A stretch of 64,000 bases of DNA from an uncultured Clostridia bacterium (lineage in GTDB: Bacteria > Bacillota > Clostridia > Oscillospirales > SIG627). Both the position numbers and the translations under genes were made by a program. Positions 12,189 through 54,335 of this stretch are shown here, in pieces. Positions within the stretch are counted from its first letter, which is position 1, and each line of letters starts with the position of its first letter. Location: assembly GCA_947589595.1 (NCBI GenBank), contig CANQBV010000003.1:62001-126000 (forward strand). The letters run 5' to 3'. The notes beneath the pieces are model-generated. The model worked only from the letters and a program-made list of their open reading frames with translations, had not been told where the DNA came from and searched no databases.

Positions 12189-15100
12189 TTAAAGTGTTTC
12201 TTCGTAATCTTCCAGGGTAGGAAGTCCGAATTCCGAACGCTTTCTGGAAAGCTCAGCATTGATGGTGTCGATATAACCGAGCATTTCTTCCACCGGATCC
12301 GCGTCATCGTTATAGGCGCTCAGGAAAGCGAATTCAACGTATCTTGTCACAATATAACCGCCGGGCATTTCGGGCGTGGCCTGCAGCCAGTCGAACTGGC
12401 GCTGCAGCTCTTCTCTTTCCTCAGCCGTCCAGCTCATGGAGTAGAGCGCTTCCAGGTTGGCGGTCGCATACTGACCGGAGGCGCCGAGCAAAGCATAGTA
12501 TTCCTGACCGTAGGTCGCCTGCGTTTCCGCACCGACCCACCACTTCATGAAGTCCCACGCTGCCTTAATCTCTTCGCAGCCGCGCATCATCACCACACCG
12601 GTAATAGTGGTGTCAGCCGTGTGGTCGATTATGACTTCTCCGTTTTTATCGGTCCGCACGGTTCCGGGCAGCAGCGTAAAGCCCCAAAGGCCGCGCAGCT
12701 CCGGCGCATAGATCGTAAGCTGAGAATAGATCGTGTACTGAGAAACGCCCACGGGCATTTCACCGGTACGGAAGCGGTTTACAAAGCTATAGGAGTACGG
12801 GAAGCCATACATGGTATACATTTCACAGAGATCCTTAAAGGTCTCCAGCGAAGTATTGGAATCCAGGTTGATCTGCATACCGAAGCTCAGGCCACTTTCA
12901 TCGCCGGGTAAAGCCTCGCGGTAAAGCTGCTCTCCTCTCTGATACAAGAGGATCAGAAGACCTGCCAGAGATTCGTGATAACCGAACTGCAGGTTATTGG
13001 ACTGCAGGGTAGGCAGCATGTTGTATACGTCGTCCCAGGTTTCGGGAATATCCAATCCCAATTGCAGCAGGATATCGCTGCGGTAGAACAGCATGGAGAA
13101 TTGCTCGGTTTCCGGCAGCGCGTACGCCACGCCGTAAAGCTGCAGCGGGGTGGTCGCCGCGTCGGCAAACCAGGAAATCACTTCGTCATAATCCGAGAAC
13201 ACCTCACGGCACAACGCGTTCTGCGCCAGGGTCGCTTCGTCGTCCCCTTCCTTGTCCACGTAGCCGGCCGGATTGAGCGGCATGACGGCGGAGCGAATGG
13301 CGTAATTGATCACGTTGGCGGAAGTGGTGGTCAGGTTCACGTCCGGGCCGCTTCCGGAAAGCGTAGCGGGAAGGAGCGAACCGGCAGCAACAAGCTTCAG
13401 TTCCACTGCCACATTGTAATTCTTCGTAAAGGAGTCGCTCACAAGCGAACGGATAATCTGCGCCTGGTCACGACCGGAAGTGGTCCATACTTCAATCGAA
13501 GCATAATTCTCGGTGCCCTCGGCCGTACGGACGCCGTAGCTGGAATAGTCGCTGATCCAGCTCATCACAAACTGTCTGAATTCATAAGCCATCGCCGAGA
13601 AGAAATTCGCACCGGCGCGATAGCCGTTGTCCTTCAGGTAGCGGGCTGTGTTTTCTCCGGCGGCGGAAGTGGGATAAACCAGGATATAGTCAAATTCCAA
13701 AGGCTGGTTTCTCGTCGTCATGATCCAGGTACCGAGCGTACCGATATAGTCTTTGAGTTCATCGAAGTTCGGAGCGATCAAATCTTCGTCTCCGCCCATT
13801 CTTTCCAAAAGGAGCGCTACGTTTTCCAGGGTAACGGAATCGGACCCCTTGGTGCCGTTGATCTCTTCCAGCTGAGCGGAAAGCTCATAAAGCTTTTCCG
13901 ATTCCTCCAGCATACCGACCAGTACCTCCGGCATCAGCTGGCCGAATTTATAATCGCGGTATTCATCCGGCTCCGCACCGGTAAGCATGAGGATCTGCAG
14001 GTAGTATTCATTGATATTGGCAAGCGAAAGCTCCACGTCGGTCAGAACCTGCGCCATATTTCCGAGCGCGACCCAGAATTCCATCCTGTGCTTGCCGGCG
14101 GTCAGATAGAACTTAAATTCTCTTTCCTCGCCGGTCGCTTCATCGATCACGCCGTCCGTGAGAGCGGAAAGCTGCCAATCATCGTCATATTTGAAGCGCA
14201 AATACTTGGCTTCAGCAAAAGGAGTGGCCCCATCTATACGAATGTCACGCGTTACATACATACCTTCTGCGAAGGACTGGTTAAAGCGGGGAGCGATGCT
14301 GTAATACCCATCGGACGCCACTTCAAATTCCCAAGAGATCCACTGCCCTACGGTTTCCCACTTTTCCCCGCCGATGGTGTTGAGATAAATATTGTAAGCG
14401 CTTTGGGGAGAGGTGATCGCCGAGCTGCGGTTGTAGGTGGGATAAATAATATTGGAAGAAGTCAGCTGTGCCTTTTCACCCTCCAGCATGACGATATCGC
14501 CGCTGGCGTTATCGGGCTTGGCGTTGTTCGCAGCCAAATACTCTTCGTAGGTGATTTCCGAATCATCGTAATAAATACGGATCGATTCGATCGCCACCGG
14601 CTCCTGCACTTCGGCAAGGGTCAGGGTGTGCGTACCTGCTTCAATATAATAAAGGAAGGGATCCACGATGTACCCGGTGGAATCGCTCGCCAAAATGGTA
14701 CGCCATTCCGGCGCTTCCACCTTGTTCGGTTTGATTTCGTTTCCGTCGTTATCCAAAACAAAACCGCGATCGTTGACCTCCTCGTCCGTGGGAACGCTTT
14801 CGCCCCAGACGCGGCTCATTTCGATATAGCGGGATTCGCGGAACGGGTAAGAGTCGTCCAGCAGCAGAGCGCGCTCGATCGTCGCGGCGTTGCTTCTGAT
14901 GTCGACTTTTCCGTCGCCGTCCAGATCGAGATTGACGATCGGATAGTAGGTAATGGCAATGTGGTAGTTCCCGGTCTTGGTAATTTCAAAATTCCAGGTC
15001 ACGTCGCCGGTTTCGGGAATCAAAATCGTGCCTTTGCGGGAAAAGTCCGTTTTCTGCGTCGAAACTTTGGCAGTCGTTTTTTCAGGATCGAATTCGCTGC

Positions 15101-51254: not shown

Positions 51255-51986
51255 ATGTCAAAAGAACTGCAAGCCATCGACGATCGCCACAGCATCTATC
51301 AGTTTTCCGAAGGGTTTTCTTTCGGCACGGACGCGGTGCTGCTCGCAGGCTTTATCCGCTGCAAAAAAGGGCAGGTCGGCGTGGAATTCGGCACCGGCAC
51401 CGGGATCATTCCGCTGCTGCTTTCGTTACACAAGGAATTCGGCCATCTCTATGCGCTGGAAATTCAGAAGGAATACGCCGATCTTGCGCGGGAAAACCTG
51501 CGGCGCAACGGCTTTTCGGAAAAAGTCACCGTGCTGGAGGGCGACCTGCGCGAACGCTTGCCCCTGCCGGAAAAAATCGATTTCGTCTTCAGCAATCCCC
51601 CCTATATGAAGGCCGATTCCGGATACCTGAATGAGAACGAAAAAAAGCGCGTCGCCCGGCACGAAATGTTCGGAGATATCGGCGAGATCTGCCTTGCCGC
51701 TTCCCGGCTTTTGCAGGATAAAGGCGAATTCTTCTGCGTCTACCGCACCGAACGCCTGTGCGATCTGTTCTGTGCCATGCGCGCCGCAGGGCTCGAACCG
51801 AAATGCCTTGTCCCCGTGATCCCCAAAATCGGCAAAGCCGCCGCCCTGGCATTGGTGCGCGGCGTAAAAGGCGCCAAAAGCGGCATGAGGGTACGCGAAG
51901 CCTTTGTTTTGCAAGACGATTCCGGCGAAAAATCCCCGGAAAATCAGCGATTATATGAAGAAGGTTTTCTCCGCTATGAGAACTAA
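51255..51986 (+). CDS. tRNA1(Val) adenine-N6 methyltransferase-like protein (TrmN6/YabB)
   Basis: A 243-aa class I SAM methyltransferase: the SAM-binding GVEFGTGTGIIPLLLSL and the N6-adenine catalytic motif VFSNPPYMKADSG. The order IYQFSEGFSFGTDAVLL at the N-terminus is that of TrmN6-type enzymes that modify A37 of tRNA1-Val. RBS AAGGAGAAACT precedes ATG 51255. Its end overlaps the start of the lipoprotein gene. Confidence 0.9.
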   Translation: MSKELQAIDDRHSIYQFSEGFSFGTDAVLLAGFIRCKKGQVGVEFGTGTGIIPLLLSLHKEFGHLYALEIQKEYADLARENLRRNGFSEKVTVLEGDLRERLPLPEKIDFVFSNPPYMKADSGYLNENEKKRVARHEMFGDIGEICLAASRLLQDKGEFFCVYRTERLCDLFCAMRAAGLEPKCLVPVIPKIGKAAALALVRGVKGAKSGMRVREAFVLQDDSGEKSPENQRLYEEGFLRYEN

Positions 51987-52572
51987 ACGGCTTTGGGCGG
52001 CGCTTCTCTTTTTTTCTCTGCTGCTTTCCGGCTGCACTCCCGGGAACGAAAGGCTTACGCCCAATGATTTTCTTTCGATTTTGCAAAACGACGACCGTTT
52101 CCCTCTCGCCGTGCAGGAGCTGGAAAACAGCGGGCAGGATCGCTTTTACGTCGCCCTGGAGGAAAAAGAAAGCGCCGACTCCGAAAAAGAAAAAAGCACC
52201 GGGACACAAGAAAAGAAGGAACTCATTTTGGTTACCTACGTCTCCAAAAGCTCCAACCACGAGGAAATGGAAAGCGAGCTTCTTTTTTCCCTTTTGCAGG
52301 ACTATGGCTTCCGGCTGATCTATTTCCAAACCGCGCGCGACGGCAGGCGGTGCATCCTTTTCAGCCTGGAAGAAGAAAGCGAAAGCTTTGTACAGGGGAT
52401 CTACTATTCTTTTGACGCCCAGCCCTGCGCCTGGTGGGGACGGCAGGCGGAGCTGAAAAAGAAAGACGACCGCTATTTGCAGCTCAGCGAAAACGGCAAC
52501 GCATGGTATTACACCCTTCCCCTGAAAGACGGCTTTTATTATTTTGAAAAGCAGGGCAGTCTCGTCGCCTGA
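51976..52572 (+). CDS. Lipoprotein of unknown function
   Basis: A 198-aa exported lipoprotein: signal MRTKRLWAALLFFSLLLSGC with lipobox LLSGC, Cys at residue 20. The body is acidic with a lysine/glutamate-rich linker (EEKESADSEKEKSTGTQEKK) and a beta-strand region near the C-terminus (YYTLPLKDGFYYFEKQG). It starts inside the methyltransferase gene; ATG 51955 in the same frame is an alternative that adds MKKVFSA. No family recognised. Confidence 0.75.
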   Translation: MRTKRLWAALLFFSLLLSGCTPGNERLTPNDFLSILQNDDRFPLAVQELENSGQDRFYVALEEKESADSEKEKSTGTQEKKELILVTYVSKSSNHEEMESELLFSLLQDYGFRLIYFQTARDGRRCILFSLEEESESFVQGIYYSFDAQPCAWWGRQAELKKKDDRYLQLSENGNAWYYTLPLKDGFYYFEKQGSLVA

Positions 52573-52679
52573 AACGAAAGCCGAAAATCTGTCGTTTTGT
52601 TTACAAAATATTCACAAGTATAAACAAAATCTGTGGTACGATAAGGTTGTAACGATTTATTTTAAAGAGAGGTGCCCAA

Positions 52680-52820
52680 ATGAAAGAATATACCCCTCCG
52701 GATATTGAATTTTATAAATTTCATACAGACGCCGTACTCACATACAGCAACCCCAATGAAGGCGGCTTTATCCCACGCTACCCGCTCGTGTCGGGAGAAC
52801 AGAAAAAAGTCTTTGATTAG
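52680..52820 (+). CDS. 46-aa peptide, MKEYxxPxIEFxKF type, unknown function
   Basis: A gene too short for the supplied ORF track. ATG 52680 is preceded by GAGAGGTGCCCAA. It encodes MKEYTPPDIEFYKFHTDAVL followed by TYSNPNEGGFIP and ends KKVFD. The N-terminal pattern (K-x-Y-x-x-P-x-I-E-F-x-K-F-x-x-x-D) recalls families of short Firmicutes peptides with MKxYxxPxIExxxFxxxDVI. A terminator begins seven bases after the stop, so this is an independent small transcript. It has no signal peptide or Cys residues. Function unknown; candidates are a signalling or regulatory peptide or a RiPP-like precursor, none supported directly. Confidence 0.75.
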   Translation: MKEYTPPDIEFYKFHTDAVLTYSNPNEGGFIPRYPLVSGEQKKVFD

Positions 52821-52827
52821 GCCATAC

Positions 52828-52865
52828 AATCGGTTGAAAAGAAATCTTTTCGACCGATTTTTTTA
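52828..52865 (+). terminator. Terminator of the 46-aa peptide gene
   Basis: AATCGGTTGAAAAG (52828-52841) pairs with CTTTTCGACCGATT (52846-52859), followed by TTTTT. Confidence 0.92.
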
Positions 52866-52882
52866 AGAAAGAGCAATATTCG

Positions 52883-52911
52883 TTGACATCCCTTTCCAAA
52901 AAAATTATAAT
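52883..52911 (+). promoter_or_regulatory. Consensus promoter of the CapA-family gene
   Basis: TTGACA (52883-52888), 17-base spacer, TATAAT (52906-52911): perfect consensus. Start codon at 52962 with AAAAAGGAGATTTTT. Confidence 0.93.
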
Positions 52912-52961: not shown

Positions 52962-54335
52962 ATGGATCCTTATCTCTATAACCGTACCCCGAGAAAGAAA
53001 AAGAAAAAGAAGAAAAACTTTTCTCCGTATTGGCTGGTGCCGGTTTTCCTGGTCGTCATGCTGGTGCTTGCCGTGTGGGCGTCGTTTTCCGGCAAGACCG
53101 CGGTCACAACCGAACCGCCCGCCACAGACCCGGCTGTCACCGGTACGGAAGAAGCCCCCGTCAGCGAAGAGATTCCCGAGGTTACCGAGCCGCACCCCGT
53201 TGCTACCGCTTCGGTCGGCGTCACCGGCGACATTTTGATCCACGATCCCATTATCAATAACAACCGCACCGCCGACGGAAATTACGATTTCAACAACATT
53301 TACGCCGATATCAAACCGTATTTTGAAAAATACGATTTCATGATCGCAAACTTAGAGGTCACCCTTGGCGGGGCGGAAGCGGGCGTCTATTCCGGCTATC
53401 CCAGGTTCAACTGCCCGGACAGCATGATCGACGCGCTGAAAAATGCCGGGGTGGATTTACTCCTCACCGCCAATAACCACAGCTACGACACCGGCTACAA
53501 CGGCATGCTGCGCACCGTGCAGGTATTAAAAGAAAAGAACATGTCCTATATCGGCACGCGCGAAACCGAAAACGAAAGCTTTATTACCGTGCAGGATATC
53601 AACGGAATCAAAATCGGCATGTCCTGCTACACCTACGAAACCGAAACCAGTAACCCGAACCGCAAAGCGCTGAACGGAAATCTGTTGAGCGAAGCCGCCG
53701 GGCCGCTGATCCAGTCCTTCAGCTATCAAAGGCTGGACGCTTTCTACGCACAGGTGCAGCGGGATTTGGACACGATGAAAGCGCAGGGCGCGGAATTTAC
53801 CATGTTCTACCTGCACTGGGGCAATGAATACCAGTTCGTGCCGACCTCCTACCAAAAGCAAATCGCTCAAAAATTGTGCGACATGGGCGTAGACATTATC
53901 GTAGGCGGCCACCCGCACGTCATTCAGCCCTACGAAACGCTGCAAAGTAAAACCGGCCACCAGACGCTTTGCCTGTATTCCACCGGCAACGCCATTTCCA
54001 ATCAGCGCCAGGAAATCATGGACAGCGAACCCACCGGTCACACGGAGGATGGCATTATTTTCGGCGTCACCTTTGAAAAATGGAGCGACGGTACGGTGCG
54101 CATTGCCGATCTGGATTTTCTTCCTACTTGGGTAGAACGCAAATACGTCGGCGGCAAGCTCGCCTACCGCATCATACCTTTGGATATCAGCGATCCCGAT
54201 TGGTCGCACTATAATCTGGAAACGCTTGCCCGCGCGCAGCGTTCCTACAACCGCACGCTCGCGCTGGTGGGCGAAGGGCTCAACGCCTACCGGGCTCAGC
54301 TCGGCCTGGATCCGGTTCCCTTAACCGTTTCATAA
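52962..54335 (+). CDS. CapA family protein (poly-gamma-glutamate/capsule-type metallophosphatase fold)
   Basis: A 457-aa membrane-anchored protein. A very basic N-terminus (RKKKKKKKNFSP) precedes one transmembrane helix (about 24-44) and a Thr/Glu/Pro-rich linker, after which the CapA domain has GVTGDILIHDP, ANLEVTLGG, LLLTANNHSYDTGY, HWGNEYQF and VGGHPHVIQPYE, the metal-site motifs of the metallophosphatase-like CapA fold. In Bacillus CapA takes part in poly-gamma-glutamate export, but no capB, capC or capE genes are here, so the substrate is open. Transcribed alone from a consensus promoter. Confidence 0.92.
   Translation: MDPYLYNRTPRKKKKKKKNFSPYWLVPVFLVVMLVLAVWASFSGKTAVTTEPPATDPAVTGTEEAPVSEEIPEVTEPHPVATASVGVTGDILIHDPIINNNRTADGNYDFNNIYADIKPYFEKYDFMIANLEVTLGGAEAGVYSGYPRFNCPDSMIDALKNAGVDLLLTANNHSYDTGYNGMLRTVQVLKEKNMSYIGTRETENESFITVQDINGIKIGMSCYTYETETSNPNRKALNGNLLSEAAGPLIQSFSYQRLDAFYAQVQRDLDTMKAQGAEFTMFYLHWGNEYQFVPTSYQKQIAQKLCDMGVDIIVGGHPHVIQPYETLQSKTGHQTLCLYSTGNAISNQRQEIMDSEPTGHTEDGIIFGVTFEKWSDGTVRIADLDFLPTWVERKYVGGKLAYRIIPLDISDPDWSHYNLETLARAQRSYNRTLALVGEGLNAYRAQLGLDPVPLTVS

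Follow-up and report, generated by a model that had tools for sequence, protein, structure and literature searches.

What does a 46-codon open reading frame encode when it stands directly in front of its own terminator and has no match among catalogued protein families? The frame belongs to the genome of an uncultured Clostridia bacterium of the order Oscillospirales and lies in a contig stretch of 64,000 nucleotides, which was analysed as a whole and is referred to here as the window. Pfam and NCBIfam contain no match for the 46-aa product, a PDB search with the single peptide sequence returned nothing, and phage sequences gave a single chance match (E = 6). We propose, with a probability of about 0.7, that the frame is a stand-alone (solo) gene for a leader-core precursor similar to those of linear polyphosphorylated peptides (LPPs). 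The LPP-like reading is based on the peptide family, which co-occurs with an LPP-type gene set and sometimes adjoins it.

The peptide gene and its surroundings

The frame runs from an ATG start to a TAG stop and encodes MKEYTPPDIEFYKFHTDAVLTYSNPNEGGFIPRYPLVSGEQKKVFD. The features of the locus, all on the forward strand, are as follows.

51976-52572, +, lipoprotein-like gene upstream (context), 198 aa, MRTKRLWAALLFFSLLLSGC..., ending 107 nt before the peptide gene
52634-52642, +, putative extended -10 promoter element TGGTACGAT, consensus match only
52668-52674, +, Shine-Dalgarno sequence AGAGGTG, with a comparable site in nearly all relatives
52680-52820, +, gene of the probable 46-aa LPP-like (YxxP-leader) precursor peptide, from the open reading frame and family membership
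52680-52742, +, predicted leader, residues 1-21 (M-K-E-Y4-T-P-P7...F14...T21), from the family consensus (Y1, P4, F11, T18, S20) and analogy to LPP leaders
52743-52817, +, predicted variable core or tail, residues 22-46, from family comparison
52746-52748, +, candidate phosphorylation site Ser23, a Ser in 40 of 44 relatives, by analogy to LPP core Ser3
52828-52866, +, intrinsic terminator, stem 52828-52859 and T run, from sequence and folding
52962-54335, +, CapA-like (PGA_cap) gene downstream (context), with its own promoter at 52883-52911

The Shine-Dalgarno sequence is separated from the ATG by 5 nt. The terminator starts 7 nt past the stop codon and has a stem of 14 bp with a loop of 4; the segment 52818-52870 folds with -18.2 kcal/mol (z = -5.4), a value that none of 200 shuffled sequences equalled. 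The ribosome-binding site, the clean 46-codon frame and the strong terminator seven bases after the stop, on which the original prediction of a missed peptide gene was founded, are therefore all present. A pattern check upstream of the frame found the extended -10 element and no good -35. Judged by these signals, the peptide gene looks like a transcription unit of one gene.

The promoter of the CapA-like gene is a perfect consensus match and lies beyond the terminator of the peptide gene. On the other side, a trmN6-like methyltransferase gene is followed by the lipoprotein-like gene, which has no Pfam match (51255-52572 for the two together), and this pair is kept in congeners. None of the five congeners has a counterpart of the peptide upstream of capA or downstream of the trmN6/lipoprotein pair, which occupy separate contigs in these genomes. 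The genomes are draft MAGs, and that of the window is 86% complete.

A dispersed family of YxxP peptides

The first relatives were found by tblastn with the peptide in 394 genomes of the order. The matches were weak, and several of them begin at residue 1 of short open reading frames led by a Shine-Dalgarno sequence. A profile built from the first 24 residues of these relatives (A2) has matches at E <= 1 in 179 of these genomes and at E <= 1e-3 in 67, nearly all of them in small open frames and at most 10 copies per genome. The original prediction had proposed a search for homologues sharing K-x-Y-x-x-P and had named the lack of conserved homologues as the outcome that would speak against it; relatives are present across the order and make up a family. 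The peptide had also been likened to orphan peptides of Firmicutes. The precursor-like style holds, whereas "orphan" is incorrect at the level of the family, which is dispersed.

The family proteins are 33-62 aa long. The consensus of the 40-odd fully read members is M-K-x-Y-x-x-P-x-[IL]-E-[IV]-x-x-F-E-x-E-D-[IV]-I-T-x-S, followed by a variable and often acidic tail. Among 44 members, the conserved columns hold Pro in 44, Tyr in 42, the final Ser in 40, Asp in 39, Phe in 37 and Thr in 31. Many of the ignored 35-60-aa open reading frames in such genomes probably form this one family. Two members from the same genome (L110:5495-5683 and L120:6668-6853) have long tails rich in Ser, Pro and Ala, including many consecutive Ser residues, and follow genes of roughly 1000-aa proteins. 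In another genome, the same family peptide is encoded twice at a distance of 8 kb (L125:5387-5518 and 13592-13723), the first copy directly behind a subtilase/LRR protein.

The first 23 residues of the window peptide match the family consensus. An HMM built without the window peptide ranked it first among 1654 segments of the window, with E = 0.02 against 8.7 for the next, and only 1 of 20,000 composition-preserving shuffles scored better. Since the HMMER model of such a short core is weak when used alone, a position-specific scan of 725,025 small-ORF positions was performed with a 20-column score matrix derived from the 44 relatives, window sequence excluded. The window peptide scored 26.7 bits. 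Clear relatives aside, the next best position reached no more than 12.9 bits, and this runner-up is itself a YxxP peptide, encoded next to a cassette of the window's own genome. Held-out relatives scored 21-50 bits and most members 30-62 bits, which places the window peptide among the weakest-scoring members of the family. Its Tyr4, Pro7, Phe14, Thr21 and Ser23 all stand at the exact consensus spacing; the near-invariant Asp (39 of 44) is replaced by Ala, and the usual acidic tail is absent. Judged from its sequence, the peptide is almost certainly a genuine, if low-scoring, member of the family.

Most relatives lie behind genes of secreted proteins

The upstream neighbour could be read for 41 members, and 33 of them are located at most 40 nt behind a gene on the same strand; 32 of these come from gene calling, and L104, with an upstream secreted gene of 1406 aa, was added by hand. 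The complete upstream genes are secreted-like in 25 of 27 cases, compared with 66 of 289 other genes at the same loci (p = 4.5e-13, with secretion called by a simple heuristic signal-peptide rule and related genomes counted as observations that are not independent). Domains encoded by the upstream genes include BspA-type leucine-rich repeats, cohesin, subtilase, CHAP, transglutaminase and F5/8-type domains. Most relatives are probably co-transcribed with the large secreted surface protein encoded in front of them, and their position directly behind surface-protein genes suggests that the product acts in concert with the cell surface. As one of the minority of solo members, the window gene has no large secreted-protein partner ahead of it. 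The solo members L106, L109, L112, L121 and L131 also have promoter-like sites of their own. A search of the literature outside subscription journals and preprints returned no paper on LPP-like systems in Clostridia and no report of coupling between precursors and secreted surface proteins. The coupling of precursors to genes of large secreted proteins is new here.

Kinase, RRE and peptidase cassettes

The LPPs of Paenibacillus alginolyticus are produced by LppA/K/B/S/D/N (Popov et al. 2026, PMC13381572). LppA consists of a YxxP leader and a variable core, LppB is an RRE, for which N33, Y60, D70 and F74 were named as contacts with the YxxP leader, and the kinase LppK adds several phosphates to Ser3 of the LppA core. 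LppS is a SipW-like peptidase that cuts after F-E-T, LppD is the exporter, and LppN also belongs to the set (PMC13381572).

A comparable gene set accompanies the peptide family. PqqD (PF05402) is encoded in 62 of the 67 peptide-bearing genomes and in 142 of the 327 others (p = 5.8e-15, a figure inflated by shared ancestry). In L142, L143 and L181-L186, the peptide gene directly adjoins genes of HprK, PqqD and the peptidase, in most cases together with ABC and/or NTP_transf_5 genes. The modifying enzyme or exporter that the original prediction proposed to look for near relatives is found beside several of them, as a cassette of kinase, RRE, peptidase, ABC exporter and nucleotidyltransferase. 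Most family members are encoded a long way from any PqqD cassette. Cassettes of a similar kind are present in named MAGs of Oscillospiraceae, Lachnospiraceae, Clostridiales and Bacteroidales. The Bacteroidales examples with an HprK-PqqD-S24 arrangement are L228, L229 and L230, and in L230 the kinase and peptidase appear to be fused in one frame of 384 aa.

The cassette kinases have a conserved P-loop and in most cases no Pfam match. An AlphaFold model of the kinase (pLDDT 92.7) has the HprK/P fold, with 1kkm as the top PDB match (E = 3.3e-6). The peptidases are of the S24/SipW type and retain Ser37-His76-Asp92 in 19 of 19 sequences; their best NCBIfam match, below the cut-off, is the archaeal type of signal peptidase I. 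The RRE of the window's own genome matches PF05402 with E = 6e-21. The RREs keep N33, Y60, D70 and F74, which are the leader-contact residues of LppB with the same residue numbers. Their PDB matches are TbiB1, PbaB1 and LppB, and the RRE of the window's genome is somewhat closer to the lasso B1 chains than to LppB. A profile of the family peptides (A3) finds only two PDB chains, the RRE-bound lasso leaders TfuA and TbiA, at E of about 1-2, a sequence match that is suggestive only.

The window's genome contains two sets of kinase, PqqD/RRE and peptidase genes, both on other contigs (C6 and C9). The C6 set (L174) is beside rsmA and a gene of a secreted FIVAR protein, and occupies the same place in the congeners L176, L178 and L179; L177 has the RRE and peptidase there, and labelling did not find its kinase. 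The secreted protein, which has about 450 aa and a weak FIVAR match, is encoded at L174:10331-11692 and also in L176-L179, thus across the whole genus, beside the set next to rsmA; a fixed partnership of this protein with the kinase-RRE-peptidase set is possible. Behind the C9 set (L175) come genes of a secreted protein of 816 aa, of two YxxP peptides of a divergent type and of a capsule protein labelled Wzz-like by eye. The two divergent peptides, in tandem at L175:6070-6450, have the pattern Y-x-x-P-x-[LF]-K-V-V-x-Y-E... and represent a second precursor type in this genome. Neither the C6 nor the C9 set has an exporter beside it. The NTP_transf_5 protein of the genome is encoded on contig C11.

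Comparison with LPPs and related systems

The cassettes resemble the LPP system in having a discrete PqqD-type RRE with the same contact residues, an HprK-fold kinase and a SipW/SpI-type peptidase with Ser, His and Asp; several of them also encode an MsbA-like ABC exporter and an NTP transferase, and capsule genes lie beside one of the sets in the window's genome. The peptides share the YxxP leader, a Thr before and a Ser after the predicted cut, and a hypervariable tail. Three of the features that mark an LPP system (peptidase, RRE and HprK-like kinase) are present in the cassettes, none of which adjoins the window gene, and binding of the leader by the RRE is predicted.

The published LPP precursor motif is YxxPxVLxHQxIxFETxxS, that is, P-x9-F-x-[T/A] (PMC13381572). 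The window peptide and its family instead have P-x6-F...T-x-S, compared with P-x9-F-E-T-x-x-S in LPPs, and do not fit the published motif. Because of this difference in spacing from LppA, we call the peptide LPP-like and not a member of the LPPs. Furthermore, LPPs were defined from a few clusters of Bacilli (PMC13381572), whereas the cassettes described here are from Clostridia and some Bacteroidales, and the family precursors are mostly scattered and located behind genes of large secreted proteins. The search for LPP precursors was confined to 5 kb around the cluster (PMC13381572), so the scattered ones would have been missed. The family of the window peptide is probably a Clostridia branch of LPP-like peptides.

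Lasso peptides of the paeninodin type (A, B1, B2, C, K, N, D) also have a YxxP/WxxP leader that is read by a discrete RRE, and they share the HprK-like kinase and NTP transferase; the paeninodin leader has W where that of the family has Y. None of the 22 genomes of the family encodes the B2 leader peptidase (PF13471), and matches to PF00733, the Asn-synthase-like family of the macrolactam cyclase, occur in the window's genome on contigs C7 and C12 only, whereas the cassettes are on C6 and C9. With no B2 and no cyclase on the cassette contigs, a lasso peptide was rejected. The HPr-rel-A (TIGR04352/04353) and SynChlorMet (TIGR04248/04249) systems also combine an HprK-related kinase with a PqqD-type protein. 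Membership in these was rejected, since all matches are far below the curated cut-offs (25.1 of 200 bits for TIGR04352, 18.9 of 35 for TIGR04353, 20.9 of 100 for TIGR04248 and 36.7 of 125 for TIGR04249).

Alternative explanations

Because of its low family score, its missing consensus Asp and its tail, which is atypical and not acidic, the window peptide could be a decaying copy, that is, a degenerate and non-functional family member that has moved away from its surface-protein partner. The lack of a giant secreted protein beside the gene, unlike in most relatives, and of a peptide at the same place in congeners is consistent with decay. However, the intact frame, good Shine-Dalgarno sequence, promoter-like element and strong terminator have all been kept, and the five consensus residues are exactly spaced, so we regard a decaying copy as unlikely. 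Quite unlikely, too, is a translated small protein that partners secreted surface proteins, for example as a chaperone or quality-control tag, and undergoes neither modification nor export. The position of most relatives immediately behind secreted-like genes, and of most members far from PqqD cassettes, would fit such a role. The co-occurrence with PqqD at the level of genomes and the neighbourhood of kinase, RRE and peptidase genes point instead to leader-directed processing, and precursors are built in just this way, with a hypervariable tail behind a conserved leader.

It is very improbable that the frame arose by chance in front of a terminator or is a leader frame that attenuates the downstream gene, even though it has only 46 codons and no ortholog in place. 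The score of 26.7 bits, against at most 12.9 bits in the null scan, speaks strongly against a chance frame. Attenuation is disfavoured by the consensus promoter that the CapA-like gene possesses beyond the terminator, by the lack of runs of regulatory codons in the frame, and by Rfam, which has no match anywhere in the window.

Proposed pathway of the window peptide

Based on the signals of the gene, the family consensus and the cassettes, a pathway for the LPP-like precursor can be proposed. Transcription of the peptide gene would start at the extended -10 promoter in front of it and stop at its own terminator. The window peptide probably feeds an RRE-kinase-peptidase pathway, the machinery of which would act on it in trans. 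The PqqD-type RRE protein is predicted to bind the leader at M-K-E-Y-T-P-P, and the HprK-fold kinase would phosphorylate Ser23 once or several times. The SipW-type peptidase may cut after Thr21 or, with lower likelihood, after Thr16. The tail would then leave the cell through an ABC exporter and serve at the cell surface. By analogy to LPPs, the chances that the product is both exported and phosphorylated at Ser23 are about even.

We speculate, while considering it rather unlikely as a whole, that the LPP-like pathway is a genome-wide system of surface decoration in this order of Clostridia. One or two central kinase-RRE-peptidase sets would serve many scattered precursors, each as a rule translated immediately after a large secreted protein of its own, the phosphorylated tails would join or anchor the secreted proteins encoded upstream, and the precursor of the window would have gained a promoter and a terminator of its own.

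The dispersal of the family suggests that searches restricted to the neighbourhood of a cluster miss most precursors. The probable LPP-like branch in Clostridia occurs in a considerable fraction of the gut-type genomes, and the location of its precursors behind genes of surface proteins provides a testable hint that the role of LPPs is at the cell surface.
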